Source: Xestospongia bergquistia
Taxonomy: Eukaryota > Porifera > Demospongiae > Haplosclerida > Petrosiidae
NCBI GenBank assembly: GCA_963965975.1
Contig: OZ014423.1
Location: 5,296,301-5,360,300 of the forward strand
Length of the DNA: 64,000 nucleotides
Reading direction: 5' to 3'
Shown here: piece after piece, positions 38,958 to 59,938 of the stretch
Numbering within the stretch: position 1 is the first letter of the stretch
How the letters are laid out: the number at the start of each line of letters is the position of its first letter
The notes under the pieces: generated by a model
Told to the model about the DNA's origin: nothing
The model's database searches: none
Seen by the model: the letters and a program-made list of their open reading frames with translations, nothing else
Translations under genes and position numbers: made by a program

Positions 38958-39138
38958 ATTAAGCTTATTAGTTGAGGTAGGATAACAATTAACCAAGTTA
39001 AGCATCTTCCTTTCATTCAATCTATAAAAGTAGCATGTTGCTGTCTGGTTACCATCAGTTCTGTACTGAGTATCTCACATTTGCTCCAAAGCAAAAGTTA
39101 TCTATTTGACTGTGAGTAGTATCTTCACCTTATCTCGG
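38958..39138 (+). promoter_or_regulatory. Promoter of methyltransferase copy A (TATA at 39023-39030)
   Basis: TATAAAAG at 39023-39030, preceded by CTTCCTTTCATTCAATC. The 180 bp upstream of the start codon match the same region of copy B (offset 5,160 bp) almost perfectly, and its core is also kept upstream of inverted copy C. This implies selection or recent duplication of the promoter together with the gene. Confidence 0.6.
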
Positions 39139-39141
39139 ATG

Positions 39142-42100
39142 ATGGAGTCTGTAAAAAAACTCTCTCCTTCCCAATTCAAGGAAGAACAGAAATGGAACTA
39201 TCTTACCAATTTCATATCTCATGATGCAAAGAAAATGAGTAAGATGGAATAATGGATGTAAATATATGTGTGTGTGTACTGTTTTTATGTTCATTCTCAT
39301 TAAAATATATCATTTGTTACATATATAAACTGTTTTCTCTTTTTCTTCTGATAGATTACTTTGAGTCAGATCCCAATTTTGCAAAGCACAAAGGATCTCT
39401 AGTTGTTATAGGGTCTGGTATCAAAAGTGTTGGTCAGTTTACTCTGGAAGCTGTGTCACATATCAAGTGTGCAGATAAAATCCTCTTCTGTGTTGCTGAC
39501 CCTGCAACTGAGGTCTTCATAAAGGATATGCGTCCAGATGCAATGGATCTATATGTTTTCTATGCTGATGACAAGAAACGTTATGACACATATGTCCAGA
39601 TGGCTGAGTCATGTCTCTTTTATGCTCGTAAGGGACTCAATGTTGTTGCAATATTCTATGGTCATCCTGGAGTTTTTGTGATGCCATCTCACCGAGCTAT
39701 CAAGATAGCCCTCAAACAAGGTATGTTGCCTTAAGCACAATAACAAACATATAAAGTTTAATTATTAATTATTATTTCAGGTATCAAAGCATACATGCTT
39801 CCTGCTGTATCTGCAGAAGATTGTCTTTTTGCTGACTTGGGAATCGATCCCTCTTTTCCTGGTCTACAAACCCTTGAAGCTACTGACCTATTACTACGTC
39901 AACGTCAAATCCTCACTGATGCTCATGTCATTATATGGCAAGTTGGATGCGTTGGAGATCTTGGATTTCGAAGAAGAGGCTATCTCAATGAGAATTTCCA
40001 CATTCTCATCAATCACTTGCAAAAGATATATGGAAACAACTATGTGATAACCCACTACATTGGTGCTCAATATCCAGTCTGCAAAGCACTTGTGGAAGAA
40101 ATACCTCTAGCTAATTTTTATGAGCCTGACATAGCCAAACGAGTGACTGGAATATCTACATTCTACATTCCTCCCATGGTTCTTAAGGATGTCAATCCTT
40201 CAATGGCTATGCAAATGGGAATAATTGCTAAGGAAGAGGAAGCAAAGAAATATGTCAAAGGAAAACGAGATGTCAGTAGGTATGGCCCTCGTGAGATCAA
40301 TGCTATTGACTCACTCTGTGAATACACTGTTCCTATGCCATATGCTCACACACCATCAGGCAATGCTGCTCGTTACCTTGGAGCTCTCAGTCAAGATGTG
40401 AAGCTTTTACGAGAACATATGGCAAATCCAGATAAAACTATGGACAAATTTGGCTTGAGTGACAGAGAAAAAGAAATCATCAAGAGTGGGCACAGTGGTC
40501 GTATTCGTATGATGATGAAAGCTGACACAGAGAGTGTTGCTGAGCAAGCTGCCATCCGTTTGGTGACTGATCCTCAATTTGCCTCCAACTATGCTGCTCA
40601 AGGACGCAAGTATGTTGATGATGCTGATGGTATTGAGAAGATACACGAATGGCTTGTTCTTCAGGGATACGACACAACACCTGACGACATCACAGCTGCT
40701 ATTACTAAGCTTCAAATGAGCTCTCTTATCATGTGGAGTGGAACATATTCAACTAATGTAAAAGATGTAACAATACTGGTGCAGGGAGAGAAACCACCAT
40801 CAGTTGGTAAAGTTTGGGTGAATGATGTTTATATCAAAGGCATTACCTTTGCTAACCAAACTCTCTCTTGGTCTGAATCTGGTGGTAACCAATCCAATGC
40901 TCAGCTAAAATTTACAGACAAAGGTGATGGAGTTTTTGCCATTAGCGGCAAATACTGGGAATCTGGCTCTACTAAGCCATCTTCTGATAATCTCATGGGT
41001 CAAAGTAAAGCCTTCACATCTGCACTAGCCAACTGGGTAGGCCAGTACAAAGGAACACTTGATTCCAAGCCTGGTCCAGAGCTTGACTTAGCTCCAATGT
41101 CCAGCTCATCTTCTACATCTGAGGCTGACTACATCCTCACAGTTGGTGGAAAGTCGATAAAAGGTTTCAAGTATGATGATGCCAAAAAAATGCTTTCATG
41201 GTCTGATGATAGCAATGATTCAAATGGTACTGTAGAGTTTTACACTAAGAAAGACAGCAACGATAATAATGCAGACGTTACTTTTCATTTCCAAGGAAGC
41301 TACTACAAGAAAGGAGACAAAAAGCCATCGAAGAATAATTACTTTGGTTCACTTGACACAAGTTACATTAATCCTTATTTAGGCCAGTTTAAGACAACCC
41401 AACAAACTGCACCAAATACTTACATTTCAGGCCCAGAAGTCTTTCTTTCAGTTGGTGACAAAAATGTCATCAATCTTAAGCTTGGAACTAAGACTATCGA
41501 AGCTCCTGTCTTTAACAATCCAATTCTCTCATGGTCCAGTGACAAAAATGACACCAATGGAGAGTTAACGCTCTATGTTGATCCTAAGAAAAACCAACCC
41601 GGTTTTGTCGGCATGTACTGGAAAAAGGGGGACAAGAAACCAACAAGCAACAACTTCTTTGGGTTACCAGATGAGCAATTTCTACAGCCATGGTCTGCTT
41701 ACTACAGCACACAATTTCTTGATATGGGTGACAAGCCAGAGCCTGGAGCAGCACTTCAAATCATTGGAGGAACAACTCCCGAAACAAGTTCTGCCATTTA
41801 TGGCAAAGAAAACATTAAAAGCATGCAGTTTAACAACCCCATTCTTTCTTGGTCTTCCGATGATGGTAATTCTTTTAATATCGAACTTACTTTTTACATT
41901 GACAAGACAACTCAAGGTCGTAAATTTTCTGCTTATTATTGGAAGAAAGGAGGATCTAAACCTTCTAAGCCCAACATGATTGGCTTTGTTGATCCAAAGT
42001 TCCTTCAGTCATGGACTGGAACGTACAACACCTCTCTTAAGGATGGTGACACATACAAACCAGGAGGCCCAGCTGTACAGATTATTGGAGGTAAAACTGT

Positions 42101-42824
42101 CGAAGACAGTACAATTCGTATCGCAGGAGATGAAATTAAGAACTGGAAATACAGTTCAGGAGCTAAGAATATTGGCACTGTTGAGTGGTCTACTGATGTT
42201 AACGCAACTGGAGGTGAGATGCGTTTCTACATTAGTAAAGATGGATATCAATCCTTTGCTGGCAAATATTACAAGAAGGGTTCCTCACCTCCAAAGGAGG
42301 ATAACTTCATTGGATCACTGAAGCCAGTTAGTCCTGTCAACCCAACACCAGGTGGTGGAAGTCCTTGGACATTCTCTAATGTAGCTTTTGCTTTAGTGAT
42401 GGGATTAGTGTCCCATGTCTTTATCAAAGCTGTCACTAAGGCGATTAATGCTTTGAAAAACTACATCAAGAATCCCAGTAAGGAAAATGAGAATGAACTT
42501 AATCGTGATAGAGAAGATGCAGATGATGCCTCAGAGAGGCAGTCAGAAGCTGAAGAGAATGTTAGCGAGCAAAATCCTGAGCTAGAAGCAACAGAACCTA
42601 CACCAAGTGAGCCCACTGTTACAACCGAAACTGAAACCACTGAAACATCGGAAACAACTGAGACAGAGACAACAGAAACGGAGACAACAGAAACGACTGA
42701 AACAACTGAAACTGAGACCACAGAAACTACAGAGACAACTGAGACAACTGAAACTGAAGTTGAAACTGCTGAAGTGGAAACAGCCGAGGTTGAAGTTGTT
42801 GAAGTTGAAATAATCGTTCTTTAA
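39142..42824 (+). CDS. Borosin-like peptide N-methyltransferase fused to repeats, copy A
   Basis: Exons 39142-39238, 39355-39720 and 39781-42824 encode 1,168 aa (a second ATG at 39139 adds one Met). No signal peptide. Residues about 45-300 form a SAM-dependent tetrapyrrole-methylase-fold domain: GSLVVIGSGIKSVG at 46-59, FYGHPGVF at 133-140, VSAEDCLFADLGIDPSFPG from 164. Tyr99, Tyr102, Arg108, Tyr112 and Tyr134 have the same mutual spacing as the active-site residues I know for the omphalotin methyltransferase. Residues about 360-402 resemble its clasp helices. Residues 406-466 (LVTDPQFASNYAAQ, then QGYDTTPDDITAAITKLQ) look like a Nif11-type leader. Five beta-rich repeats of about 107 aa (470-1005; W.G.Y at the start, KP..N..G at the end) match no family I know. 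A TM helix (about 1017-1039) precedes an acidic Thr/Glu tail ending VEVVEVEIIVL. Enzymatic activity and substrate are inferred. About 96% identical to copy B. Confidence 0.8.
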
Positions 42825-43208
42825 ACTAGCATCAGAACTCTGAAGACTAGTTTTGTAGATAGCTAATTTTTAGTTTTAGTGAACAAATATGATAACAATT
42901 TCATATACAACTATTAGCTCTTTATTAATTTTAGATTATTCCGTGTAACTACTCAATTTCATTTTATATAGATGACTAATTCTCTTAACAATTTAACAAA
43001 CAGACAACGCTCTAATTTATATGTAGATATCTCTTGCTATAAAGTGTATAAAATCCATGCAAAGATTAATTTCACTAAGATAGTTAACATTCATCAATGT
43101 CAACAATAAAACCATTTAAACAGAACCTTGTTGGTGAACAACACTCTGAGCACAATTTCATAACTGCATCACTGTAATCATTAAACTATTATATATATAT
43201 ATAATATA

Positions 43209-43258
<50 letters not shown>

Positions 43259-43344
43259 TTATAAGTATGTATATATATATATATAACTGTTCATGTATGT
43301 ACTTTGAACTGATAGTGTCGACATGGACAACTCGGTACCTGATG
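42825..43344. repeat. Spacer with (AT)n array at 43190-43284
   Basis: 3' flank of copy A. It is AT-rich, with an almost pure TA array of about 95 bp at 43190-43284 that could form a cruciform. No gene. Confidence 0.8.
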
Positions 43345-43490
43345 GTTTCATGTAAAGGTTTTGGATGGTCTTGTATGGTGCTAAGAAGGTGGGCAGAGCT
43401 GATATTCTAACTTGGTATACTAGTGCCTTATTTATTCAAGCATTCTTCTTTGGGATTTAAAAAAACAAGGTTATGAACCACTGAACTTAG
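43345..43490 (+). pseudogene. Decayed claudin-like exon 3
   Basis: Aligns by eye to exon 3 of the two claudin-like genes: TAAAGGTTTTGGATGGTCTTG, then GGTGGGCAGAGCTG, CTTGGTATACTAGTGCC, TTTATTCAAGCATTCTT, and a degenerate end (TTATGAACCACTGAAC versus TTATGCACCACTCAA). Frame-breaking differences and no exons 1 or 2 nearby mark it as a relic. It lies between methyltransferase copies A and B. Confidence 0.75.
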
Positions 43491-44117
43491 GCCTCAATTA
43501 ATGTATGAATTGACTACACTTTCATCCCAAGAAATTGTTGTTGTTCTTTTCATTATTTTGTGTGATTGTATGATTGAGTCTGTTTTACAATTACACTATT
43601 TTTATGAACATACTATTTTTGATATATAATTTTTGATATAAGTATAGGAAATCCTTATTTTACTGTGTGCTATACTAATCCAGCCACAAAAAATAGTTAT
43701 GAATTAAGTGTCTACAAGTCTGGAAGAAAATTAAATTAGTATTGGCGCTTTGATGATCAAGTCCAAATGCCACATTGGCACTTTGAACCTTTATAATATC
43801 ATGTCACAAGCAATGTTAACAAGTCCACAAGCATTAACAATAGCAATGTTTGAGTTTGTGGACTTCCTACTGGGTTTAACGATGAATAATATAGATTTCT
43901 TCTGAATCTCTAAGCACTTCAGTGTAATTTTTAGAATATTAACAATGCTAAAAGGATTCTGTGATAGACCTCTCAATCATGTATTTACACAAGCAAAGGC
44001 AAACCAATTTTAATAAGGAAATCATATTAATTGTCCTCATTAATGGTGTGGTTTGTTGATTGAAACAAACATATTAGATTAGGAACCAACTGACAATAGA
44101 TTTGATTAATATAATTA
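43491..44117. other. Intergenic spacer
   Basis: AT-rich sequence between the claudin relic and the copy B promoter. No coding region or structured repeat recognised. Confidence 0.4.
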
Positions 44118-44298
44118 ATTAAGGTTATTAGTTGAGGTAGGATAACAATTAACCAAGTTAAGCATCTTCCTTTCATTCAATCTATAAAAGTAGCAGGTTG
44201 CTGTCTGGTTACCATCAGTTCTGTACTGAGTATCTCACATTTGCTCCAAAGCAAAAGTTATCTATTTGACTGTGAGTAGTATCTTCACCTTATCTCGG
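44118..44298 (+). promoter_or_regulatory. Promoter of methyltransferase copy B (TATA at 44183-44190)
   Basis: Near-identical to 38958-39138, including TATAAAAG and the TTCCTTTCATTCAATC element just upstream. The conserved block begins abruptly near 44118, which marks the 5' edge of the duplication. Confidence 0.6.
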
Positions 44299-44301
44299 AT
44301 G

Positions 44302-47300
44302 ATGGAGTCTGTAAAAAAACTCTCTCCTTCCCAATTCAAGGAAGAACAGAAATGGAACTATCTTACCAATTTCATATCTCGTGATGCAAAGAAAATGAGT
44401 AAGATGGAATAATGGATATAAATATTTGTCTGTATGCTGTTTTTATGTTCATTCTCATTAAAATATATCATTTGTTACATATATAAACTGTTTTCTCTTT
44501 TTCTTCTGATAGATTACTTTGAGTCAGATCCCAATTTTGCTCAGCACAAAGGATCTCTAGTTGTTATAGGGTCTGGTATCAAAAGTGTTGGTCAGTTTAC
44601 TCTAGAAGCTGTGTCACACATCAAGTGTGCAGATAAAATCCTCTTCTGTGTTGCTGACCCTGCAACTGAGGTCTTCATAAAGGATATGCGTCCAGATGCA
44701 ATGGATCTATATGTTTTCTATGCTGATGACAAGAAACGTTATGACACATATGTCCAGATGGCTGAGTCATGTCTCTTTTATGCTCGTAAGGGACTCAATG
44801 TTGTTGCAATATTCTATGGTCATCCTGGAGTTTTTGTGATGCCATCTCACCGAGCTATCAAGATAGCCCTCAAACAAGGTATGTTGCCTTAAGTACAATA
44901 ACAAACATATAAAGTTTAATTATTAATTATTATTTTAGGTATCAAAGCATACATGCTCCCTGCTGTATCTGCAGAAGATTGTCTTTTTGCTGACTTGGGA
45001 ATCGATCCCTCTTTTCCTGGTCTACAAACCCTTGAAGCTACTGACCTATTACTGCGCCAACGTCAAATCCTCACTGATGCTCATGTCATTATATGGCAAG
45101 TTGGATGCGTTGGAGATCTTGGATTTCGAAGGAAAGGCTATCTCAATGAGAATTTCCACATCCTGATCAATCACTTGCAAAAGATATATGGAAACGACTA
45201 CGTGATAACCCACTACATTGGTGCTCAATATCCAGTCTGCAAAGCACTTGTAGAAGAAATACCTCTAGCTAATTTTTATGAGCCTGACATAGCCAAACGA
45301 GTGACTGGGATATCTACATTCTACATTCCTCCCATGGTTCTTAAGGATGTCAATCCTTCAATGGCTATGCAATTGGGAATAATCACTAAAGAAGAGGAGG
45401 CAAAGAAATATGCCAAAGGAAAACGAGATGTCAGTAGGTATGGCCCTCGTGAGATCAATGCTATTGACTCACTCTGTGAATACACTGTTCCTATGCCATA
45501 TGCTCACACACCATCAGGCAATGCTGCTCGTTACCTTGGAGCTCTCAGTCAAGATGTGAAGCTTCTACGAGAACATATGGCAAATCCAGATAAAACTATG
45601 GACAAATTTGGCTTGAGTGACAGAGAAAAAGAAATCATCAAGAGTGGGCACAGTGGTCGTATTCGTATGATGATGAAAGCTGACACAGAGAGTGTTGCTG
45701 AGCAAGCTGCCATCCGTTTGGTGACTGATCCCCAATTTGCCTCCAACTATGCTGCTCAAGGACGCAAGTATGTCGATGATGCTGATGGTATTGAGAAGAT
45801 ACATGAATGGCTTGTTCTTCAGGGATACGATACAACACCTGACGACATCACAGCTGCTATTACTAAGCTTCAAATGAGCTCTCTTATCATGTGGAGTGGA
45901 ACATATCCAACTAACGTAAAAGGTGTAACAATACTGGTGCAGGGAGAGAAACCACCATCAGTTGGTAAAGTTTGGGTGAATGATGTTTATATCAAAGGCA
46001 TTACCTTTGCTAACCAAACTCTCTCTTGGTCTGAGTCTGGTGGTAACCAATCCAATGCTCAGCTAAAATTTACAGACAAAGGTGATGGAGTTTTTGCCAT
46101 TAGCGGCAAATACTGGGAGTCTGGCTCTACAAAGCCATCTTCTGATAATCTCATGGGTCAAAGTAAAGCCTTCACATCTGCACTAGCCAACTGGGTAGGC
46201 CAGTACAAAGGAACACTTGATTCCAAGCCTGGTCCAGAGCTTGACTTAGCTCCAATGTCCAGCTCATCTTCTACATCTGAGGCTGACTACATCCTCACAG
46301 TTGGTGGAAAGTCGATAAAAGGTTTCAAGTATGATGATGCCAAAAAAATGCTTTCATGGTCAGACGATAGCAATGACTCAAATGGTACTATAGAGTTTTA
46401 CACTAAGAAAGTCAGCAACGATAATAATGCAGACGTTACTTTTCATTTCCAAGGAAGCTACTACAAGAAAGGAGACAAGAAGCCATCAAAGAATAACTAC
46501 TTTGGTTCACTTGATACAACTTACATTAATCCTTATGTAGGCCAGTTTAAGACAACCCAACAAACTGCACCAAATACTTACGGTTCAGGCCCAGAAGTCT
46601 TTCTTTCAGTTGGTGACAAAAATGTCATCAATCTTAAGCTTGGAACTAAGACTATCGAAGCTCCTGTCTTTAACAATCCAATTCTCTCATGGTCCAGTGA
46701 CAAAAATGACACCAATGGAGAGTTAACACTCTACGTTGATCCTAAGAAAAATCAACCCGGTTTTGTCGGCATGTACTGGAAAAAGGGGGACAAAAAACCA
46801 ACAAGCAACAACTTCTTTGGGTTACCAGATGAGCAATTTCTACAGCCATGGTCTGCATACTACAGCACACAACTTCTTGATATGGGTGACAAACCAGAGC
46901 CTGGAGCAGCACTCCAAATCATTGGAGGAACAACTCCCGAAACAAGTTCTGCCATTTATGGCACAGAAAACATTAAAAACATTCAGTTTAACAACCCCAT
47001 TCTTTCTTGGTCTTCCGATGATGGCAATCCTTTTAATATTGAACTTACCTTTTACATTGACAAGACAACTCAAGGTCGTAAATTTTCTGCTTATTATTGG
47101 AAGAAAGGAGGATCTAAACCTTCTAAGCCCAACATGATTGGCTTTGTCGATCCACAGTTCCTTCAGTCATGGACTGGAACGTACAACACCTCTCTTAAGG
47201 ATGGTGACACATACAAACCAGGAGGCCCAGCTGTACAGATTATTGGAGGTAAAACTGTCGAAGACAGTACAATTCGTATCGCAGGAGATGAAATTAAGAA

Positions 47301-47982
47301 CTGGAAATACAGTTCAGGAGCTAAGAATATTGGCACTGTTGAGTGGTCTACTGATGTTAACGCAACTGGAGGTGAGATGCGTTTCTACATTAGTAAAGAT
47401 GGATATCAATCCTTTGCTGGTAAGTATTACAAGAAGGGTTCTTCACCTCCCACAGAGGACAATTTCATTGGATCACTAAAGCCAGTTAGTCCTGTCAACC
47501 CAACACCAGGTGGTGGAAGTCCTTGGACATTCACTAATGTTGCCTTTGCTTTAGTGATGGGATTAGTTGGTCATGTTTTTATTCAGGCAGTTACTAAGGC
47601 AATTAATGCTTTGAAAAACTACATCAAGAATCCCAATAAGGAAAATGAGGATCAACTCAATCGTGATAGAGAAGATGCAGATGATGCCTCAGAGAGGCAA
47701 TCACAAGCTGAAGAGAATGCCGGTGAGCAAAATCCTGAGCTAGAGCCAACCGAACCTACACCTAGTGAGCCCACTGTTACAACTGAAACTGAAACCACTG
47801 AAACATCGGAAACAACTGAGACAGAGACAACAGAAACGGAGACAACAGAAACGACTGAAACAACTGAAACTGAGATCACAGAAACTACAGAGACAACTGA
47901 GACAACTGAAACTGAAACTGAAGTTGAAACGACCGAAGTAGAAACAACTGAAGTTGAAGCAGTTGATGTTGTCGCAGCTTGA
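44302..47982 (+). CDS. Borosin-like peptide N-methyltransferase fused to repeats, copy B
   Basis: Exons 44302-44398, 44513-44878 and 44939-47982 encode 1,168 aa, the same lengths and phases as copy A. The methylase-fold domain, the Tyr/Tyr/Arg/Tyr/Tyr set, the clasp-like and Nif11-like segments, the five repeats and the TM segment are all kept. Differences from copy A are scattered single substitutions until the tail. The last 22 or so residues differ more (ends VEAVDVVAA instead of VEVVEVEIIVL). Copy A's exon 2 differs at only a few bases. Both introns are also nearly identical between A and B, showing a recent tandem duplication. The protein should sit with the methyltransferase domain on one side of a membrane and the 130-residue acidic tail on the other. 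Function beyond peptide or protein methylation is not deducible. Confidence 0.8.
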
Positions 47983-48332
47983 ACAGCTATTTTAGAATTA
48001 ATTATAGACTGATTTAGTAGTTTCTCAAATAATTAATTATTAGTGAGCAATTTTGTAGCCATTTTTCATAATGATTGAAATAGTTCTATTAGCATTGTCA
48101 GTATAATTTGAGAAATTCATGATTTTTTCAACAGCTAACTAAATTTTCCAATTAATTGCAGACATCAGATAAATATTTTCTCTATTCATCTCACAATAGC
48201 CAACAATTGTAGGATTATATCTAAAATGTACCTTATTGAGATAGTTTCTTTCCCATTATTGAGGTCACCAAGAGTACACTTTATTACTTGAAACATAAAA
48301 CGTATAATATAAAATATCCAATTCTACTGTGC
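47983..48332. other. 3' flank of copy B
   Basis: AT-rich, no gene. Only the first few bases resemble the 3' flank of copy A, so the duplication ends close to the stop codon. Confidence 0.4.
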
Positions 48333-48622
48333 AGTTTTTCAAAAATATTCCAATTCTATTTTCTATCCTTTGATGGAATATTTAACAACTCAAAATCCTA
48401 TAGCCCCGCCCTAACCGGAAACATGTCGCTTAGCTCCATTCTTAACGGCTCGCTTTGCTTCATTGAGCTCAATACAATGAAGTGCGAGCACCGCAAGCTG
48501 TCTCTTAGAATGGAGCAAAACGACATGTTTCCAGTTAGGGTGGGAAGTATAGGATTTTAGCTGTTAAATATTCCGTCGAAGAATAGAAAATAGAATTGGA
48601 ATTGGAATATTCTTGGAAAACT
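48333..48622. mobile_element. Fold-back / MITE-like element
   Basis: A long imperfect inverted repeat of about 290 bp. The left arm (TTTTCAAAAATATTCCAATT, AATATTTAACA, ATCCTATA, CCCTAACCGGAAACATGTCG) is mirrored by the right arm (CGACATGTTTCCAGTTAGGG, TATAGGAT, TTAAATATT, AATTGGAATATTCTTGGAAAA). The centre, about 48435-48520, is GC-richer and itself partly self-complementary. No transposase. This is typical of a non-autonomous inverted-repeat element. A target-site duplication was not clear. Confidence 0.7.
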
Positions 48623-48815
48623 TCAAATTAGTATATGAAATTACGAAGTAGAATGGATGGCTATGTACAGTTAATTATACTTTTATAATATCTATTACAA
48701 TATACTTTATGTCAGTAAAGGTTATTGATTTGCTTTCAATGTTTAGGTATTTATCATTATGCTCCATTACAGAAATATCATGTACAGAGCTGATTATCTA
48801 CTTTGACAATGGTCA

Positions 48816-48823
48816 TATATAAG
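48816..48823 (+). promoter_or_regulatory. TATA box of the POT-like gene
   Basis: TATATAAG 34 bp upstream of the ATG at 48850. This would place the transcription start almost at the start codon. Confidence 0.35.
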
Positions 48824-48849
48824 TCCCAGTAGTTACATACCAGAGCAAA

Positions 48850-49932
48850 ATGGCAGCCAAGATAGAGGGTTCACTTGTTTCCAGATCACAGCGTATTGAT
48901 ATACCAGAAGCTTCACAAACATCAAGATCTTTTGTCCATTTTGTTAGTATGTCAGCAAGAAATAGCAGTATCACTGGCAAAACTAACAGTTGCTATGGTT
49001 GTAACTATCACATCCAATGTGCATTTTCTAAAGGAGCCCTTCTTGTTCTACTGTGGGGATTCATGACGCATGCTTTTATCCCTTTTTATATTTCATCATA
49101 TTTACTTCAACTGGCTCTAGCTTACAATCACAAAGTTCCTGACAGTATCCATGGAAACCTATACAGAGCTTTGTTTATCCTGTACCCATTCGTGGGTTGG
49201 ATAGCTGATGCTAAGATTTGTCGTTATAAAGCTATACAATGCAGTATATTCAGTATGTTTATTGCTTCTATATTAATGTCCATTGGATACATTGTACATG
49301 CCTTTAGTAACCAACAACAGTCCTCAGTTTAATTCATGGTCATGATAATTCTTGGTATAAGTATTGCCTTTAATTTAGTTGGATTTGCTTGTTTTGATGC
49401 TAATGTTATTCCTTTTTTAACTGACCAAACTCAAGGAGCCTCTGGAGAAATGTTAAGTGCTTTGATCCACTGGCATTTTTGGTGTAGAGCTGTAGCTGAA
49501 ATTGTTAATATTTTCTTATCAGAAATTTCTTCTATACTTAAAAGTCAGTATTTCACAATGACAATACTACTGGTTCATATAATACTGATTGGAATTATTA
49601 TTGTCACTATTGCCTTCTGTGAACATTGGCTGGATACTACCCCTCAAATTACCAACCCCATCAGATTGATTGTTAAAGTATTCAACTATGCAAGAAAGAA
49701 CAAACACCCAAGGAATCGTAGTGCTTTGACTTACTGGGAGGAGGACTACCCTTCACGACTGAACCTTGGTAAAGGAAAATATGGTGGACCATTTTCAGAG
49801 GAGCAGGTAGATGTTAAGACTACATTAAGATTACTACCAATTTCATTCCTTTTTGTTGGATTTGGTATTTTAATAAGTCCAATAGTATTCATAGAACATC
49901 TTCAGCTGTTGCTAATGAAATTGGTAAATTAA
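48850..49932 (+). pseudogene. Broken POT/PTR (SLC15-like) peptide transporter
   Basis: ATG at 48850 opens a frame of 160 codons with several TM segments (GALLVLLWGFMTHAFIPFYI) and a POT-type signature (RALFILYPFVGWIADAKICR). An in-frame TAA at 49330-49332 interrupts it. The same frame then continues from 49333 with the expected next motifs (FACFDANVIPFLTDQTQGAS) and ALTYWEEDYPSRLNLGKGKY, until 49932. Proton-coupled oligopeptide transporters have about 12 TM segments. Only about seven are present here, so the C-terminal half is missing as well. The continued reading frame on both sides of the stop suggests recent inactivation or, less likely, a short product. Confidence 0.7.
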
Positions 49933-50938
49933 TATCTGATCTTGAAGAGCATGAACAAAAGATGAAAGAGATTTCAAAAGAATTAGAATCATTTTCTTGT
50001 TGAACTATTTCCTTATTTGTTCATTTTAAAATTGTTATACATTAGTTTTTTTATAATCCATGCATTATCCATTTATACACACATCTGTCCATTCTATCTA
50101 CCTCTAGACAATTTTTGTCATACAGCTTGTGTTGTTCTTTTCATAGTTTTGTCATTTGTATACTTGTCTTTAATTAAAATGCTAGTTTGTTACTTAATTT
50201 GATTATATATTGAATAGCTAAACTAATTAACTTATTCATGACCACTATAAGTGTTTAGACACACCCACTTGAAGAAATTGCTGCTAAAAGTGAGACTATT
50301 TCTCAGGTCTCACAGCATCTTACTGGTAATTGTAAGTTCTTAATAATTTGAAAATTACTTAGTTTTTGTTTCTTTGTTTCTCTGATTATAATAGTACGTT
50401 CAGATAATGACATTTGTTAGTGGTCATCAAGAACAAAATGTAAACATCCATTAAATAATGAAGGGGCTTTCCATATTTCCTTACAAGATCCTCACACTGA
50501 CCCTGACTGTCTCCCTCTATCACTATATAATGATATATTACCATACTACACTATACCTATGTGGTAAGTTTGAGTGGGGCCCCATAGACAGTGATATATA
50601 CTTAATATATTGTAGTATTGTACTTAGATATGTACATATACTTTCAATATCATTACATTATCTATATTTGTACTATAATAATTATAAATGTAAATTTGTT
50701 CCTTTTATCTAGTCATCTCTTTATCTAGATTATATGTCTATATACTTTGTCCATCTTATTTTCTATTTAACTGTATTACATTTCAATTTTCTCTAGTGGT
50801 GTATATGGTATTGAAGATTACTACCTTACTGATCCATTGGTTATCATACTATTACTCAGTACCCCTTTAATTAAGTTATCTAATTATCACTTACATCGTG
50901 ATCTTCAATCATCATTATCACAGCATGTTAGTTAATGA
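49933..50938. pseudogene. Degenerate gene fragments, unassigned
   Basis: In a shifted frame, 49892-50002 encodes a helical, charged segment (ISDLEEHEQKMKEISKELES) ending in a stop. 50260-50330 gives another short coil-like piece (LEEIAAKSETISQVSQHLTG), and 50797-50935 an open piece (GVYGIEDYYLTDPLVIILLL) after a splice-acceptor-like TTCTCTAG. No family was recognised, and stops and frame changes argue for a decayed gene. Confidence 0.35.
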
Positions 50939-51745
50939 GGTTTGTCCATCTATCCAACCATTCATCCATTAATCATCTATTGTCCATCTATCCAACCATT
51001 CATCCATTAATCATCTATTTGTCCATCTATCCAACCATTCATCCATTCATCATAAATTTGTCCATCTATCCAACCATTCATCCATTAATCATCTATTGTC
51101 CATCTATCCAACCATTCATCCATTAATCATCTATTTGTCCATCTATCCAACCATTCATCCATTAATCATCTATTGTCCATCTATCCAACCATTCATCCAT
51201 TAATCATCTATTTGTCCATCTATCCAACCATTCATCCATTCATCATAAATTTGTCCATCTATCCAACCATTCATCCATTAATCATCTATTGTCCATCTAT
51301 CCAACCATTCATCCATTAATCATCTATTTGTCCATCTATCCAACCATTCATCCATTAATCATCTATTGTCCATCTATCCAACCATTCATCCATTAATCAT
51401 CTATTTGTCCATCTATCCAACCATTCATCCATTCATCATAAATTTGTCCATCTATCCAACCATTCATCCATTAATCATCTATTGTCCATCTATCCAACCA
51501 TTCATCCATTCATCATAAATTTGTCCATCTATCCAACCATTCATCCATTAATCATCTATTTGTCCATCTATCCAACCATTCATCCATTAATCATCTATTT
51601 GTCCATCTATCCAACCATTCATCTATTAATCATCTATTGTCCATCTATCCAACCATTCATCCATTCATCATAAATTTGTCCATCTATCCAACCATTCATC
51701 CATTAATCATCTATATGTCTATCTATCCAACCATTCATCCATCCA
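50939..51745. repeat. 37-38-bp minisatellite with higher-order variants
   Basis: About 21 copies of TCCATCTATCCAACCATTCA plus CCATTAATCATCTATTG or CCATTCATCATAAATTTG. The two end variants alternate in a recurring pattern, showing that blocks of several units were duplicated together. It sits between two decayed coding fragments. Confidence 0.95.
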
Positions 51746-52780
51746 TTTAATCCTTGTATCCTATCATTGATCCATTGATTCATTGTTCATCTACAATGAG
51801 TTATTATTAATCTATTATTAATTCATTATTAATTATAATTGTTATCTCTCTATTACAGGTAAAGTCATTATCAGAGGATGGTCTATTAGTAGTTCTGTTA
51901 GTACACAGTTTACCACAATTTGAATATGGGTTAGACCCTGCTATTAAACAAATTAATGTCATGTATCATACCTAAGGTAGAGTTTTTTGTTCAATTTTGT
52001 GTAACATAATCATATCTATTTGACATATGGAGCTCTCAATGATGTTATAAATAATGTCTTTAATTGATTACAGGCAGAATTAATTCTCTCAGTATGAAAC
52101 TTTTAGTCCTCCGTTAATAGGAGTACTTTAATATATTATTCAACCTCTATACTGAGGACATTTCTATACTGGGACAACATGATACAGTTAGAAGCAGAAA
52201 GAAGATTTTGTAGCATTAATGACATAAGCTGAAGAGTACAAGTCTAAATGACAAAAATATCATAAATTGAATCAACATTTAGATCAAGAGAGAGATAATT
52301 TAGCTTTGGAGCTCCATCAAAAAGATGACATTATTGATATTCTACACCAGCGAGTCCAGTATTTAAAAGGCAAAGAAAGCCATCCCCACAATGAGGGATA
52401 TATAGGTGATTATTCTGAATGAGATCATTTGAATGACAATGATAAACAGGGGAGTGGGTCTAATGACAGAGAGGTGGAGCTACATGTGCCATATGTATTG
52501 TCTGACTTACGTACTTGTACAAAACCTAAACCATTTAGCTGTTTTTCTATGGGATCAATGCATTACTTACCTCAAATGATAGTCAAAATTTCGACCACTC
52601 ATTAGTGAAGTGTTACCCTTATCTGATGACCCCATTTTGCCAACCACCAATCACATGACTTCAACACTTAGTTTATCGTCAGATAAACTACACCTCAAAT
52701 TCTCAACACATTATTTACTGTAAGAATACTGCAAAACCATTCCCACACCCTTTACAAATAGAGGGCTTCCCTCCAAGCTA
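51746..52780. pseudogene. Decayed coding fragments
   Basis: 51859-51976 is open (VKSLSEDGLLVVLLVHSLPQ) after an ACAG acceptor. 52270-52420 encodes a coil-like segment (ERDNLALELHQKDDIIDILH) that stops at a TGA near 52419 and continues in the same style (DREVELHVPYVLSDLRTCTK) up to about 52600. Several stops and lack of splice structure suggest a relic. I do not recognise the family. Confidence 0.35.
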
Positions 52781-53189
52781 GCACTGGTAGGTCTGAGTTC
52801 ATACAACTAGTCGGATACACTATGATAGCTGTCTACTAGTTTCACTAATTCATAATAATATATAGTGATATATATATATTGTAACAGAAAATGACTTTGA
52901 GACCATTAAACTGACTATAATTATAGTTTGGATTTTCTGACTGAAATATAGTACCCTATATCACATATAGACATTGTATTACAAATATATTTCTTTTCAG
53001 TAACAAGTAGAATAGTTAAAGTACTGTTTAAGACCTAATTAATTGTTAATTAGATCAATTAAAAATCAATTAACGTTGGTCACGTGGGTGGTGGTGAAGG
53101 TGACAAATTTTTCACGCGTTTTCTTGACTGATTGTCAAATTGAAGCGTGAGAAATATCTCTTGATAATATAAAAGGTACTCCATTTTTC
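52781..53189. other. AT-rich spacer with TATA-like element at 53168-53174
   Basis: No gene. The last 100 bp before 53190 contain CACGTGGGTGGTGGTG and TAATATAAAAGG, compatible with a promoter for the repetitive open frame that follows. Confidence 0.3.
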
Positions 53190-53507
53190 ATGTCTCTATC
53201 TTCTCTACGACTCGCCTCGTCGCTGGATCATCTCGTCACTTCGTTGGATCGACTCACCTCGTCGCTGGATCATCTCGTCACTTCGTTGGATCGACTCACC
53301 TCGTCGCTGGATCATCTCGTCACTTCGTTGGATCGACTCACCTCGTCGCTGGATCATCTCGTCACTTCGTTGGATCGACTCACCTCGTCGCTGGATCATC
53401 TCGTCACTTCGTTGGATCGACTCGCCTCATCGCTGGATCATCTTTTTGTTTTAGTTATGTCATCTTTTTATTTCTTTTCTTTTTTATTTTATTTTTTAAT
53501 TATTTGA
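53190..53507 (+). CDS. Hypothetical 105-aa protein from a 42-bp repeat (heptad leucines)
   Basis: ATG at 53190 opens a frame through five and a half copies of a 42-bp unit (53205-53440) encoding the 14-residue repeat LDHLVTSLDRLTSS, then a hydrophobic end (VMSSFYFFSFLFYFLII). Leu falls at positions 1, 4, 8 and 11 of each repeat, an ideal a/d heptad pattern for a coiled coil. A TATA-like TATAAAAGG lies about 20 bp upstream. The array is unusually CpG-rich for this region. The opposite strand is also open, so this may only be a minisatellite. No homologue is recognised and expression is unproven. Confidence 0.25.
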   Translation: MSLSSLRLASSLDHLVTSLDRLTSSLDHLVTSLDRLTSSLDHLVTSLDRLTSSLDHLVTSLDRLTSSLDHLVTSLDRLASSLDHLFVLVMSSFYFFSFLFYFLII

Positions 53508-53799
53508 TTGTGTAAAGATTTTTATTTTCACCCTTCGTTTCTATAGGACTCAACTTGGAAGTTCTTACTGTGATTGGCCTGATGTTCTTGACTGTTCTCT
53601 GATGTTTCTGTGATGTTTCTGATGTTCTTGACTGTTCTCTGATGTTCTCTGGATGCAAAAGATGAGTCGCTCTCCTGCTCACTCTTTCCTGTCTTCCTTC
53701 AAGCCTTCTTTCCTTTCTTTTAATTTTTTTTTAATTTTATTTTGGGCTATCTAGCCTATACACTATACACACACTCATACAATCTCTAAAAATCATATT
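53508..53799. other. Pyrimidine-rich spacer
   Basis: T-rich sequence with short imperfect repeats of TGATGTTCTTGACTGTTCTC (53580-53650). No coding region seen. Confidence 0.4.
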
Positions 53800-53864
53800 C
53801 CCCCTGCCGCCTGGCGGCCAAAAAAAATTTTTTTTAATATCCAAGGCCGCCAGGTGGCGGGGGG
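53800..53864. repeat. GC-rich hairpin with A/T loop
   Basis: The left arm CCCCCTGCCGCCTGGCGGCC (53800-53819) pairs with GGCCGCCAGGTGGCGGGGGG (53845-53864) around a 25-nt loop of A8T8-type sequence. It is a striking contrast to the AT-rich surroundings. It could be the core of a small inverted-repeat element. Confidence 0.85.
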
Positions 53865-54117
53865 AACCTCTGATCTTCTAGGGTGCGTGTGTGTGTGCTG
53901 TGTGTGTGTGTAGGTTGGTAGTCCTTTTTCACTTCCTCTGTCTCTCTTCTCTCTCTATCCATTCATTGTCACCAGTTCAGTTATGACTACTCTTTTCTTT
54001 CTTTCCCTGCAGGAGCAGCACTGTTGAAAGGTGAGCTACCTCTCCATCCATCCATCCATTCTTTAGTAATCCAGTTGTTCCAGATAACTTTCTTTTTCTT
54101 CCTCTATGCTCTCTACT

Positions 54118-54210
54118 TGTGGACTGACTGGAAGACTCTTATGGACTGACTGGAGGACTCTTGTGGACTGACTGAAAGACTCTTGTGGACTGACTGGAGG
54201 ACTCTTGAGG
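54118..54210. repeat. 22-bp tandem repeat, four copies
   Basis: Unit TGGACTGACTGGAAGACTCT plus two bases, with A/G changes between copies. It lies in otherwise featureless sequence (53865-54470). Confidence 0.85.
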
Positions 54211-54483
54211 ACTCTTCAACTATGGAGACTGTCTTATTTTAATTTTTTATTTTTTTTCTGTAATTTTTAATGCTCTTCTTTATAGTTTGTTTGTATATTG
54301 TTTAAAGTTCTCAATAACATTTTTTTTAATCTAAACTTTGTCAAAAGTCAATCTTCAGTTAAAATTATTTATTAATCCTCAAATCAAACATTCTCTGTTT
54401 TTTTTAACATTGAAATTGTTTCATAAAAATTGAGTTAGTTAAGAATTGAGTTTTTTACAAAATATCTTGGTGATCTTTTTACA

Positions 54484-54668
54484 ACTAATGTATTATACCA
54501 GTATAGATCATTTTTATTTTTGTTAGTAATTCTTTTGGAAAACTAAAAATACTTTATTAATATTAGTTTGTTATACTAATGTATTATACCAGTATAGATC
54601 ATTTTTTATTTTTGTTAATAGTTCCTTTGGAAAACTAAAAAAACTTTATTAATATTAGTTTGTTATTA
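54484..54668. repeat. Tandem duplication of about 95 bp
   Basis: Two near-identical copies beginning TAATGTATTATACCAGTATA and ending TTATTAATATTAGTTTGTTA. The flanking sequence up to 55430 is non-coding apart from an open piece at about 54967-55075 (ECAKNKSIERECQKTFHIYG) that may be a decayed exon. Confidence 0.8.
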
Positions 54669-55429
54669 TCATTAATGTTTTAGCAAATAGCTATACCAGT
54701 TAATTAATAATCTTTTTTTAATAATTAATTAAAAATCTATTAATATCTTGCTGTTCTCTTTACGCGTGCAATGTAATATTTCCCGCTAAAATAGTGGTGG
54801 TCACGCGTTTGTTATTCCTTCCAAGGTGTGTGCTCGTGATATTTTCCCGCCTAACCAACGTGTGAATTCTCATTGGCTAGAGACTTTTGATCCTTTGACT
54901 GGACTCTCTCCTTCCTTTGACTGATTCTTTCTGTTTTATGTTTCTCTATACTCACTTACTTCATAGAATGTGCCAAGAACAAGAGTATTGAAAGGGAATG
55001 TCAAAAAACTTTTCATATTTATGGATGTTATGTAGCCATGATTGATCAATGGATGAACAAAGCAATGATTGGAGGTAGTATGTTAGAAACTTAAAATTTG
55101 GCTATAATTTGACTATAGTTCTCCAATCAGTTATTTCAATCAACTTATTTGTTAAATTTTTATTTATTTTTGTGTTTTATTGTTAAAATTAAAGTTTATT
55201 TATCAGTTGCAGTATATTTACATGTAATACAGCAACATATGTAAATGGTTAATGAATAATTTTATTAATGACAAATTAGAACTGAATTGAGTGCATGTAA
55301 TGATATATTTCAAAATTCAGATTTTTATGAAAGCTGCCACTAGCTGATTGAAGTTCAGTTAGAGTAGTCAAGTTACCACAAATAGCAACTATGTACATGT
55401 AATAATATTAGATAATTTTGGTATGGAAA

Positions 55430-56005
55430 CTATCCTCAATAGGTACACAAGTACATGTATATGGTAATAATGGTACGGAAGCTACCCTCAATAGGTACAC
55501 ATGTACATGTAATATGGTAATAATGGTATCGAAACTACCCTCAATAGGTACACATATACATGTACATGTAATATGGTAATAATGGTATGGAAGCTACCCT
55601 CAATAGGTACACTTATACATGTACATGTAATATGATAATAATGGAATGGAAGCTACCCTCAATAGGTACACAAGTACATGTACATGTAATATGGTAATAA
55701 TGATACGGAAGCTACCCTCAATAGGTACACAAGTACATGTACATGTAATAGGGTAATAATGGTATGGAAGCTACCCTCAATAGGTACACTTATACATGTA
55801 CATGTAATATGGTAATAATGGTATCGAAACTACCCTCAATAGGTACACAAGTACATGTACATGTAATATGGTAATAATGGTATGGAAGCTACCCTCAATA
55901 GGTACACTTATACATGTACATGTAATATGGTAATAATGGTATGAAGCTACCCTCAATAAGTACACTTATACATGTACATGTAATATGGTAATAATGGTAT
56001 GTCTA
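55430..56005. repeat. About 60-bp minisatellite
   Basis: Nine or ten copies of a unit containing GGTAATAATGGTATGGAAGC, TACCCTCAATAGGTACAC and ACATGTACATGTAATAT. It lies just beyond the 3' end of inverted copy C. 56006-56222 is plain AT-rich 3' flank. Confidence 0.9.
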
Positions 56006-56222
56006 TCTGGACATATTGTATACAAGACTATAATTATTATAATACTAATTGCTTTGTACAGTACCAATGAAATTGTTTTAAAAATTTTATACAAAAACAA
56101 GTACTGAAATAGTAATGCTGCAACTATAATGGAAATGATTAATTTCATAGAAAAATTGCCTAAAAGCTCTAGTCATAACAAAAACTAATTCTTTTTTATA
56201 CAAAAACAATAGCTACAATGTT

Positions 56223-59200
56223 CTAATCAACAGTAACATCTGTTGCACTTTCAACAGTTTCTACTTCAGTAGTTTCCACTTCAGTTGTTTCAGTTGTCTC
56301 TGTAGTTTCTGTAATATCGATGTCAGTCGTTTCAGTTGTTTCGGTTGTCTCTGTAGTTTCTGTAATATCGATGTCAGTCGTTTCAGTTGTTTCAGTTGTC
56401 TCTGTAGTTTCTGTAATATCGATGTCAGTCGTTTCAGTTGTTTCTGTTGTCTCGGCTTCAGTTGTTTCAGTTTCAGTAGTTTCAGTGGTTTCTGTGGTTT
56501 CAGTTTCAGTTGAGACAGTGGGCTCATTTGGTGTAGGTTCTGTTGGCTCCAGCTCAGGATTTTGTTCATTGACATTCTCCTCAGCTTCTGCCTGCCTTTT
56601 TGAGGCATCATCTGCCTCATCTTGAGCCTTATCAAGTTCTTCCTTGTTTTCTTTACTTGGATTCTTTATATATTTATTGTAGACATCTATTAACTTCTTA
56701 ACCACTACCATGAGCTTCAGTGATCCTAATCCTGCCACTAATGATGCTATTATGCTTTTTAAGGACCAAGAGTCTTCTTCATCTTGTGCTGGATCAACAG
56801 GCTTCATTGAGCCAATAAAATTATCATCCTTAGGAGGCGGGGAACCCTTCTTATAATATTTACCAGCGAAAGATTGATACCCATCCTTGTCAATGTAAAA
56901 ACGCATTTGACCTCCAGTTGCATTGTCTTTAGTAGACCACTCCACAGTACCAATATTTTCTTTACTTGAACTATACCTCCAGTTCTTGATTTCATCGTCG
57001 TCCAGTTGTATGGTGCTATCTTCAACGGTCTCACCTCCAACAATTGTGACAACTGGGCCCCCTGGCTTGAAGTCATCACCATCTTTAAGAGAGGTATTAT
57101 ACGTACCAGTCCATGACTGGAGGAACTGAGGATCAATAAACCCAATAATGTTGGGCTCGCTTGGTTTTGATTTACCTTTCAACCAGTAGTAGCCAGAAAA
57201 TTTACGAGCTTGAGATTTCTTGTCAGTGTAGAAAGTCAGCTCTGCATTGAAGGGGTTGCCACCTTTAGCCATCCATGACATTACAGGGTTATTGAACTGC
57301 ATGTTCTTAATCATGCCTGTGCCATAAATGACAGAACTTTTTTCAGGAGTTCTCCCTCCGATGACCTGGAGTGCTGCTCCAGGCACTGGTTCATCCTCTC
57401 TATCGAGGAGTTGCGTGCTATAATAAGCAGACCATGGTTGTAGATACTTCCGATCTGCTTGGCCAGTAAAATTGTTGCTCTTTGGTTTTTTGTCTTTTTT
57501 TTGCCAATACATACCAACAAAACCTGCTTGATTCTTTCTTTGGTCAATATAGAAGGTTAACTCTCCATTTGTGTCATTTTTCTCACTAGACCACGAGAGA
57601 ACTGGATTGTTAAAGACGGGAGCATTGATTACTTTAGCACCAAGCTTAAGATTAATGACATCGTCATTGTCAACTGAAAGAAAAACTTCAGGACCTGGAC
57701 TATAAGTAACTGGTCCATTTTGTTCAATTGTCTTGAATTGACCTACATAAGGGTTAATGTAGGTTGTATCAAGTGAACCAAAATAGTTGTTTTCAGATGG
57801 TTTTGTCTCTCCCTTCTTGTAGTAGATTGCTCTGAAATGAAAAGTAACATCAGTGTTACCTTCGCTGGTGTCTTTCATGGTGTAAAACTCTACATTACCA
57901 CTTGAATTGTTGTCATTGGATGACCATGACAATAATTTCTTGTTATTATTGTACTTAAAACCTTTAATAGTTTCTCCACCTACACTGAGAATAAAATCAG
58001 CTTCAGTTGTTCCAGGAGACGAACTAGATAGTGGTTGCAGCACAAGTGCTGGACCTGGCCTTGAATTAAGCTTGGAATCAAGTGTGCCTTTGTACCGACC
58101 TACCCAGTTAGCTAGTGCAGATGTGAAACCTTTATTCTGACCTGTGATATTATCAGTGGATGGTTCTAAGGAATCAGTCTCCCAGTACTTGCCACTGATA
58201 TAGAAAACTCCATCACCTTGGTCTGAAAATGTTAGCCTTGCATTAGATTTATTACCACCAGACTCAGACCAAGAGAGAGTTTGATTGGTAAAGGAAATCT
58301 TTCTTATGCGAACGTTACTCACCCAAACCTTAGCAGTTGATGGTGGTTTTGTTCCCTCCACAATAATTTTCACACCCTTTATATTAGTTAAATATGTTCC
58401 ACTCCACATGAGCAAGGAGGTTTTTTGAAGGTTGGTCTTAGCATCTTCGATATCATCAATTGTAACATCATATCCTTGACGTGCAAGCCATTTCTCGATT
58501 TTCTCAAGACCATCTGGGTCTTCCTGATACTTCATACTTGCGTGCTTGAGCAGCATAGTTTGAAGAAAATTGTGGATCAGTCACTAAACGGATCACAACT
58601 TGTTCAGCAATGGTGTCTACATCAGCTTTCATCATCATACGAATACGACCGCTGTGCCCACTCTTGATTGCTTGCTTTTCTTTGTCATTTAAGCTAAATT
58701 TGTCCATAGTTTTATCTGGATTTGCCATATGTTCTCGTAAAAGCTTCACATCTTGACTGAGAGCTCCAAGGTAACGAGCAGCATTGCCTGATGGTGTGTG
58801 AGCATATGGCATAGGAACAGTGTATTCACAGAGTGAGTCAATAGCATTGATCTCACGAGGGCCATACCTACTGACATCTCGTTTTCCTTTGGCATATTTC
58901 TTTGCCTCCTCTTCTTTAGTGATTATTCCCAATTGCATAGCCATTGAAGGATTGACATCCTTAAGAACCATGGGAGGAATGTAGAATGTAGATATTCCAG
59001 TCACTCGTTTGGCTATGTCAGGCTCATAAAAACTAGCTAGAGGTATTTCTTCCACAAGTGCTTTGCAGACTGGATATTGAGCACCAATGTAGTGGGTTAT
59101 CACGTAGTCATTTCCATATATCTTTTGCAAGTGATTGATGAGAATGTGGAAATTCTCATTGAGATAGCCTTTCCTTCGAAATCCAAGATCTCCAACGCAT

Positions 59201-59938
59201 CCAACTTGCCATATAATGACATGAGCATCAGTGAGGATTTGACGTTGACGTAGTAATAGGTCAGTAGCTTCAAGGGTTTGTAGACCAGGAAAAGAGGGAT
59301 CGATTCCCAAGTCAGCAAAAAGACAATCTTCTGCAGATACAGCAGGAAGCATGTATGCTTTGATACCTGAAATAATAATTAATAATTAAACTTTATATGT
59401 TTGTTATTGTACTTAAGGCAACATACCTTGTTTGAGGGCTATCTTGATAGCTCGGTGAGAATGCATCACAAAAACTCCGGGATGACCATAGAAGATTGCA
59501 ACAACATTGAGTCCCTTACGAGCATAAAAGAGACATGACTCAGCCATCTGGACATATGTGTCATAACGTTTCTTGTCATCAGCATAGAAAACATATAGAT
59601 CCATTGCATCTGGACGCATATCCTTTATGAAGACCTCAGTTGCAGGGTCAGCAACACAGAAGAGGATTTTATCTGCACACTTGATATGTGACACAGCTTC
59701 CAGTGTAAACTGACCAACACTTTTGATACCAGACCCTATAACAACTAGAGATCCTTTGTGCTGAGCAAAATTGGGATCTGACTCAAAGTAATCTAAAGAT
59801 GAGACATAATTATTTGGTAAACAGAGTATTTATAATCTTACCCATTTTCTTTGCATCATGAGCAATAAAATTTGTAAGGTAGTTCCACTTCTGTTCTTCC
59901 TTAAACTGGGAAGGGGAAAGTTTCTTTGCAGACTCCAT
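56223..59938 (-). CDS. Borosin-like peptide N-methyltransferase, inverted copy C, frameshifted
   Basis: Exons 59842-59938, 59427-59792 and 56223-59366 on the minus strand. Exons 1 and 2 have the same lengths as in A and B. Exon 3 is 100 nt longer. The reading frame breaks at about 58526-58539, where AAGTATG/AAGTATC form a 7-bp tandem duplication. Upstream the frame stops at 58504. Downstream a 777-codon frame (to 56223) stays fully open through the repeats, TM and tail. Disregarding the 7 bp, the protein would be about 1,199 aa. The break falls inside the Nif11-like segment. The stretch 58696-59792 is nearly identical to A/B, intron 2 included, whereas exon 1, intron 1 and the 3' part differ clearly. 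The tail has three copies of a 51-bp unit encoding a 17-residue DIDITETTETTETTETT repeat and ends SATDVTVD. It is either a very young pseudogene, an allele, or an assembly error. Confidence 0.75.
56311..56463. repeat. 51-bp in-frame repeat in the tail of copy C
   Basis: GTAATATCGATGTCAGTCGT starts at 56311, 56362 and 56413, each 51 bp apart, and encodes the 17-residue acidic Asp-Ile-Asp-Ile/Thr-Glu-Thr repeat. It is absent from copies A and B, which have only TETTET runs. Confidence 0.9.

Follow-up and report, generated by a model that had tools for sequence, protein, structure and literature searches.

Does an animal chromosome encode an enzyme that methylates the peptide backbone of its own tail? 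The question is raised by three linked genes, here called A, B, and C, in a 64,000-nucleotide stretch of DNA from the demosponge Xestospongia bergquistia (the window; positions 5296301-5360300 of the 6.49-Mb contig C13 in a 21-contig, 146-Mb sponge assembly). Borosin-type backbone methylation has so far been worked out in fungi and bacteria, and the backbone N-methylated peptides of sponges are usually credited to symbionts. In our analysis, the three genes probably represent a borosin family of bacterial origin resident in the demosponge, in which precursor and enzyme are joined in one protein that would N-methylate its own tail.

The gene models consist of open frames and GT-AG joins read off the DNA alone, with splice joins predicted rather than taken from transcripts. 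Genes A (39139-42824; exons 39139-39238, 39355-39720, and 39781-42824) and B (44299-47982; exons 44299-44398, 44513-44878, and 44939-47982) form a tandem pair on the plus strand, are 96.7% identical in DNA, and each encode an intact protein of 1169 residues. Gene C is inverted, lies ~8 kb beyond, and shares their exon plan of a first exon of 100 bases, a second of 366 bases, and a long third. The original prediction of three linked genes with introns holds as regards open frames and GT-AG joins, which were found for all three, and the motifs it named (GSLVVIGSGI at the start, and FYGHPGVF) are present; intactness is confined to A and B, as gene C carries a 7-base insertion near 58545 that shifts the frame behind the binding domain and ends it early. 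Gene C is therefore split on the minus strand into a first part with the methyltransferase and binding domain (59941-58504; exons 59941-59842, 59792-59427, and 59366-58504; 442 residues) and a second, separate open frame of 785 residues (58580-56223) with the end of a Nif11-like segment, five repeats, a hydrophobic segment, and a tail.

The methyltransferase domain and its family

On sequence grounds, the sponge genes belong to the borosin alpha-N-methyltransferase family. The methyltransferase domain, clasp, and borosin-binding domain of gene A occupy residues 45-413 (39387..40553, plus strand, with the intron 39721-39780 inside). In a phmmer search of the PDB, these residues match dbOphMA with an expectation value (E) of 1.3e-86, with OphMA and MroMA in the same range; the match to SonM spans residues 47-303 (2.7e-39). 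Below an E of 1e-30, the PDB returned 25 sequences, every one a borosin methyltransferase, although the SonM entries partly carry the label 'TP-methylase family protein'. The decisive comparison named beforehand was with cobalamin and diphthine methylases, and it falls on the side of the borosins: siroheme synthase reaches an E of only 0.27-0.79, against ~1e-86 for borosins, and diphthine synthase is absent from the PDB matches, so that identity as a siroheme, cobalamin, or diphthine methylase is rejected. The proposed Pfam search returned TP_methylase (PF00590, E 3.8e-13). NCBIfam gave a YabN-type methylase (2.1e-9; 36.9 bits against a cut-off of 525), siroheme synthase (9.6e-4), and a precorrin methylase (3.5e-3), all far under their cut-offs, with no borosin model among the results for the sponge protein.

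The dbOphMA alignment extends, at the level of sequence, to residue 413 and so covers the clasp and the borosin-binding domain, and the SonA binding domains match weakly within residues 349-400 (E 0.23-0.65). A borosin match over the whole length, as first claimed, is thus true of residues 45-413 and not of the remainder of the 1169. Active-site residues of SonM are known from mutants (PMC8429565), and mutants of the bacterial enzyme KchMA mark Y70, Y73, R79, Y83, Y105, S136, and Q179 as important (PMC11395268, section 2.4); the Y73F mutant retained most activity, so the seven are not equally telling (PMC11395268). By a mapping that assumes a numbering shift of seven from KchMA to OphMA, their counterparts in gene A are Y100, Y103, R109, Y113, Y135, S166, and Q209, and all seven are kept in each of A, B, and C.

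The fungal type I enzymes OphMA and dbOphMA resemble the sponge proteins in their methyltransferase, clasp, binding domain, active-site residues, and a core in cis (putative in the sponge). They differ in their core, which is short and hydrophobic and follows the binding domain closely, and they are not known to have repeats or a long tail. The sponge protein is therefore not an omphalotin-like type I borosin, since a Nif11-like segment and five repeats follow its binding domain. The split type IV system of Shewanella, SonM/SonA, shares the methyltransferase family (E 2.7e-39, as above) and differs in that the methyltransferase stands alone, with the precursor and its binding domain in trans.

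The original prediction was also made without awareness of a described animal borosin. A similarity network in Xu et al. 2024 includes one from Paramuricea clavata, an octocoral, to which the main text of section 2.1 gives one sentence and no sequence detail (PMC11395268), and their discussion and conclusions carry a remark on metazoans or higher eukaryotes (PMC11395268). Beyond these mentions, we met no other animal case in that paper or in PMC8429565 and PMC11285071.

The remainder of the protein and its bacterial counterparts

The earlier domain account overlooked the other two thirds of the protein, which comprise the Nif11-like segment, the five repeats, the hydrophobic segment, and the tail. 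In gene A, the Nif11-like segment (40554..40724, plus strand; approximately residues 414-470) was recognized by BLASTP against the start of a bacterial partner protein from Nitrosospira and is presumably helical. It matches no family in Pfam or NCBIfam, Nif11 included; Nif11 proper appears in Pfam only in the Azorhizobium partner, one of the four bacterial partners described below, with an E of 0.004 that is below the cut-off, and the other weak Pfam matches in repeat-bearing frames are at 0.012 or weaker.

The five repeats (40725..42326, plus strand) are 100-114 residues each in gene A, follow the pattern WSGTY...LSWSS...FxGxYWKKG..P..N..G, and are presumed to be rich in beta structure. Their size is 100-119 residues across A and C, and B is divided likewise by a profile (A2) built from units of A, C, and the copy on contig C7; this profile finds five domains in each of A, B, and C. 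No Pfam or PHROGs family reaches its cut-off with the repeats, and the single PDB match (E 0.75) was taken as chance. Behind them lies a hydrophobic segment (42381..42437, plus strand; residues 1023-1041), a possible membrane anchor with a Kyte-Doolittle mean of 1.95 over 19 residues. It is the top 19-residue window in five of eight proteins (A, B, C, the Azorhizobium partner, and the fused bacterial protein L082, introduced below), while in the other three bacterial partners the top window falls in a repeat or in the tail.

The protein ends in a Thr/Glu/Val tail (42564..42821, plus strand) of 86 residues in A and 115 in C, closing in A with TEVETAEVETAEVEVVEVEIIVL. From its composition and from comparison with bacterial tails, we regard it as a putative multi-site core; its alternating acidic residues are a style that it has in common with the bacterial partners. 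The extreme C-termini are VEVVEVEIIVL in A, EAVDVVAA in B, and ESATDVTVD in C.

These parts have counterparts in bacteria. Two peptide patterns, searched against 84,980 prokaryote genomes, yielded 72 stretches and nine loci, the best in Azorhizobium (48%). The sponge repeat profile matches four of these nine bacterial genomes with a borosin methyltransferase, and in all four the match lies in the open frame directly downstream of the methyltransferase gene. These two-gene systems (L042-L045, from Azorhizobium, Massilia, Nitrosospira, and Methylumidiphilus, respectively) resemble the sponge genes in the order of their parts: the gene for the methyltransferase and binding domain comes first, and the next one encodes a Nif11-like segment, repeats, and a TTEV or TTDV tail. 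They differ in being divided between two genes and in having three repeats against five in the sponge. Their partner proteins measure 571-582 residues from stop to stop, each with a Nif11-like start, three repeats, and a C-terminal tract of (TTEV)n or (TTDV)n; in Nitrosospira, the tract runs into VEVVEVIVAL and then some charged residues. In single BLASTP comparisons, sponge A matches the Nitrosospira partner at 2e-17 and sponge C the Azorhizobium partner at 9e-16.

At locus L082 (genome G035, contig C199, of the phylum of Nitrosospira), a single bacterial protein combines all of these parts, arranged as in the sponge. Its 1174 residues carry, in one chain, methyltransferase, binding domain, Nif11-like segment, five repeats (five matches to profile A2), hydrophobic segment, and acidic tail, and they are collinear with the product of sponge exon 3 (E 1e-98 in a single comparison, with 29% of 869 aligned positions identical). 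It differs from the intron-bearing sponge genes in being one uninterrupted frame of 56% guanine plus cytosine (G+C), and its tail is richer in Asp and Ser than in Thr: Thr makes up 6% of its last 110 residues, whereas the tail of A is 38% Thr.

A methyltransferase match at 1e-20 occurs in 15 of 398 genomes sampled from the phylum of G003, G035 being one of the 15. At 1e-45, G035 is the sole match among 48 genomes of its class, and class samples at 1e-60 gave one of 369 (G003 itself) and three of 385 (G001 itself plus two fused forms whose tails differ). Among 72,556 plasmid records, 13 have a methyltransferase match, three of which were looked into. In the Azospirillum and Mycetohabitans plasmids, the methyltransferase gene lies behind at least two further genes, the nearer one with (DV)n/(DI)n tracts; the repeat profile finds one repeat in the Azospirillum enzyme and, at the threshold used, none in the Mycetohabitans or Burkholderia enzymes. 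The Nitrosospira partner matches one plasmid record, a Cupriavidus sequence that covers 54% of the query at 75% identity.

Related forms were seen alongside these. The one methyltransferase relative in the viral collection, on an IMG/VR contig classed as viral (L051), has an N-terminal stretch resembling the binding domain, and by eye its frame is without repeats. Loci L085 and L086 encode fused borosin methyltransferases that end in long tandem units of the AELNDA and EQHETEQHE types and are possibly, judging from these units, multi-core precursors. At L087 (1906-3801) and L088 (1984-3837), genes before the methyltransferase gene carry (DV)n/(DI)n tracts followed by ~180-190 residues, near the ~160 of the type VIII description. 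The repeat-bearing bacterial systems may already be described among borosin types V-X.

Among characterized borosins, bacterial KchMA (type III), here compared by its description, is like the sponge protein in being fused, with its core (putative in the sponge) far toward the C-terminus, and its self-methylation has been shown (PMC11395268). Type III in general is described as fused, with a core in which acidic and other residues alternate (PMC11395268, section 2.1). The sponge protein is fused and its tail alternates, and it may or may not be of this type.

Descent, copies, and residence in an animal chromosome

A phylogeny with fungal and bacterial borosins had been proposed, and it was run with 35 methyltransferase domains over 237 columns, dbOphMA being the one fungal sequence. 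The sponge copies, four in number, group together (support 100/99) and join a bacterial clade of L082, L087, and L088 at 93/91, a value just under that of full support. The omphalotin-type likeness first noted therefore stands as a strong match to dbOphMA, but the nearest kin in the tree are bacterial and not fungal. A 27-row tree without L067, L070, L073, L074, L077, L078, L080, and L081, all of which are in the 35-row tree, had the same outcome (sponge and bacterial clade 94/91). L073 is a long branch, L075 was excluded from both trees for internal stops, and four loci are duplicates (L065 of L044, L066 and L083 of L082, and L084 of L042).

Vertical inheritance, or transfer from fungi instead of bacteria, is very unlikely on this evidence. 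Its case is that dbOphMA, the only fungal sequence sampled, is 52.3% identical to the sponge in the methyltransferase domain, little below the 52.5-54.7% of L082, L087, and L088; the repeats, Nif11-like segment, and tail nevertheless occur in bacteria, and a sister grouping of sponge and dbOphMA is rejected by the approximately unbiased test (p-AU 0.018 in the 35-row tree, 0.030 in the smaller one). Acquisition of the sponge family from bacteria is the most likely course of events suggested by the sequences, with a direction of transfer that we infer from the diversity of the bacterial forms. In the 35-row tree, uniting the sponge copies with only the four split systems is rejected (p 0.004), and a single clade of all repeat-bearing proteins is just not rejected, though not favored (p 0.052; 0.076 in the 27-row tree), so that fusion may have arisen once or several times.

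Could the genes belong to some other organism? Their place in an animal chromosome, as originally proposed, is borne out by introns, by a multi-megabase contig, and by copies on three large contigs (C7, C13, and C14). The 18,997-base mitochondrial contig carries 25 transfer RNA genes (12 + 13), an atp9 frame recognized by eye, and TGA codons inside COX1, a combination that we take, from general knowledge, to be demosponge-like and not octocoral-like; an octocoral source was dismissed on the transfer RNA genes and the atp9 frame. Contamination is unlikely because the mitochondrial contig looks like that of a demosponge and relatives of the genes lie on two more chromosomes. We regard assembly contamination by a symbiont or fungus as hardly credible: sponges are indeed rich in symbionts, and the gene stretches have a G+C of 0.37-0.40 against 0.30-0.36 elsewhere in the window, yet the bacterial L082 stands at 0.56, the intron places are the same in A, B, C, and apparently the C7 copy, the copies are spread over the three large contigs, and the window neighbors are of eukaryotic type (GT92, DnaJ, MutS_V, and PIH1_CS in Pfam). 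Of the flanking claudin and MSH4 genes originally cited, the latter, tested for the MutS_V domain only, has that domain, and the claudin label is weak (PF00822, E 2.4e-4, below the cut-off). A search for a Cys-loop receptor domain gave no match, but its control matched nowhere, so it carries little weight.

The TATA promoters noted originally are recovered as a 24-base element with TATAAAA that an alignment of the 5' flanks finds common to A, B, and C and not upstream of the C7 copy. This promoter-like element is CTTCCTTTCATTCAATCTATAAAA in gene A (39006..39029, plus strand, 110 bases 5' of the start) and CTTCCTTTCATTTAATCTATAAAA in gene C (60034..60057, minus strand).

The family is larger than the window. 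A further fragment lies at C13:5365910, and of at least 46 matches in the genome, 32 fall within a 0.36-Mb stretch of C14, where 24 of the 32 have internal stops. The C7 copy has a nonsense codon within the binding domain, and 14-base GT..AG stretches in C and C7 were dismissed as introns because they are too short. The field on C14 (3.695-4.051 Mb) consists mostly of broken fragments, pairs of which recur at ~63.8-63.95 kb, a spacing that suggests a large duplication.

Pairwise ratios of nonsynonymous to synonymous substitution (dN/dS) are low: 0.10 between A and B and 0.15-0.21 against C in the methyltransferase part, 0.12 (A-B) to 0.18 in the repeats, 0.21 in the A-B tail, and 0.17 for the second part of C against A without the tail. 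For the C7 copy compared with A, the ratio is 0.15-0.18 as far as the stop and 0.34 after it. Constraint on the family is the best reading of these sequence-derived values. Within gene C, 50-base windows along one tract (58709..59798, minus strand) show 92-100% identity to A/B. Exon 1 (84-88%) and the larger part of intron 1 (56%) flank the tract on one side, and windows at 63-84%, down to 58059, on the other, a profile that makes gene conversion of the methyltransferase exons between A/B and C likely. This homogenization of the enzyme part, together with the seven of seven active-site residues kept in A, B, and C, speaks against a scaffold maintained for its repeats without methylation, the enzyme part being a relic. 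We consider such a scaffold quite unlikely, even though the repeats are constrained like the enzyme part (0.12-0.18 against 0.10-0.21) and the C and C7 copies are no longer continuous.

Two observations concern the sequence around the genes. Apparent minisatellite arrays at 53150-53515 and 51359-51750 of the window keep several reading frames open. On contig C6 (3154917-3200446), six COX1-like pieces, each with stops in the standard code, TGA among them, are likely nuclear copies of mitochondrial DNA.

The tail as a candidate substrate

How would such a protein work? We infer autocatalysis and its product, as we do the folds, the dimerization, the methylation, and the tail as substrate, in the following outline. 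Each intact protein would comprise a backbone N-methyltransferase dependent on S-adenosylmethionine, with clasp and binding domain, and then the Nif11-like segment, repeats, hydrophobic segment, and tail. Two protomers would pair head to tail, by analogy with OphMA, and the flexible tail of each would enter the active site of its partner, where several backbone amides would be N-methylated, most likely those of Val, Ile, Ala, and Thr beside acidic residues. The repeats and the hydrophobic segment may hold the tail or bring it into position. There is a precedent for a substrate tail that contains acidic residues and lies far along the protein: self-methylation of KchMA affects as many as 11 positions between residues 742 and 796, at Ala, Val, Leu, and in some cases Asp (PMC11395268, section 2.2).

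The A and B proteins differ in 43 of 1171 aligned columns, eight of which, gaps counted, fall in the last 15 (hypergeometric 9e-9). Such clustering is what may be expected of a diversifying core, but relaxation also fits.

Several points weigh against self-methylation by a family of bacterial descent. The excess of C-terminal differences could be no more than that relaxation; the tail is rich in Thr and Glu and not hydrophobic, and low-complexity tails arise easily. The fungal OphMA core lies close behind the binding domain, and ~670 residues intervene in the sponge protein. Two of the four long copies are broken (C by its frameshift, C7 by its nonsense codon), and the C7 copy has Asp as the counterpart of Y113. 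The tie to the bacterial clade, at 93/91, is not starred and rests on three bacterial sequences, with a single fungal sequence in the tree, and plain identity puts L042 (60%) and L044 (57%) nearer to the sponge than L087 (55%) and L082 (54%), so that it is the tree, and not identity, that carries the claim of descent.

Whether the methylated tail would be released is a separate matter. It is possible, though we lean the other way, that the tail is cut behind the hydrophobic segment and exported or cyclized as a defense compound, like fungal omphalotin. The enzyme family is the same as that of omphalotin, the extreme C-terminus varies between A and B, and a gene for an SLC15A4-like peptide/histidine transporter lies between B and C as two abutting frames (48823-49932, plus strand; the second with E 7.6e-7, the first without a Pfam match). 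The transporter is itself interrupted in frame by a TAA near 49330 that marks either an intron or a broken gene; Peptidase_S9, the prolyl oligopeptidase family, has 12 matches in the genome and none on C13; Pfam found no tailoring enzyme in 11 other window frames tried, P450 not having been searched as a family; and in its length, acidity, and repetitiveness the tail differs from known mature borosins. That a membrane-anchored protein instead methylates and retains its Thr/Glu/Val tail, without being the precursor of a small released peptide, seems to us less likely still, with the odds clearly against it. If true, the retained tail would be a protease-proof, backbone-methylated protein stalk on an animal cell. 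We know of no such modification in any animal.

For the sponge, a host-encoded enzyme of the borosin family, probably acting on its own tail, makes a host origin of sponge N-methylated peptides directly testable. The genes also clearly exemplify how a multi-domain natural-product gene of bacterial type can exist as an intron-bearing, duplicated, and constrained animal family. They point in turn to a bacterial system, in split and fused forms, whose repeats match no Pfam, PHROGs, or PDB family here.

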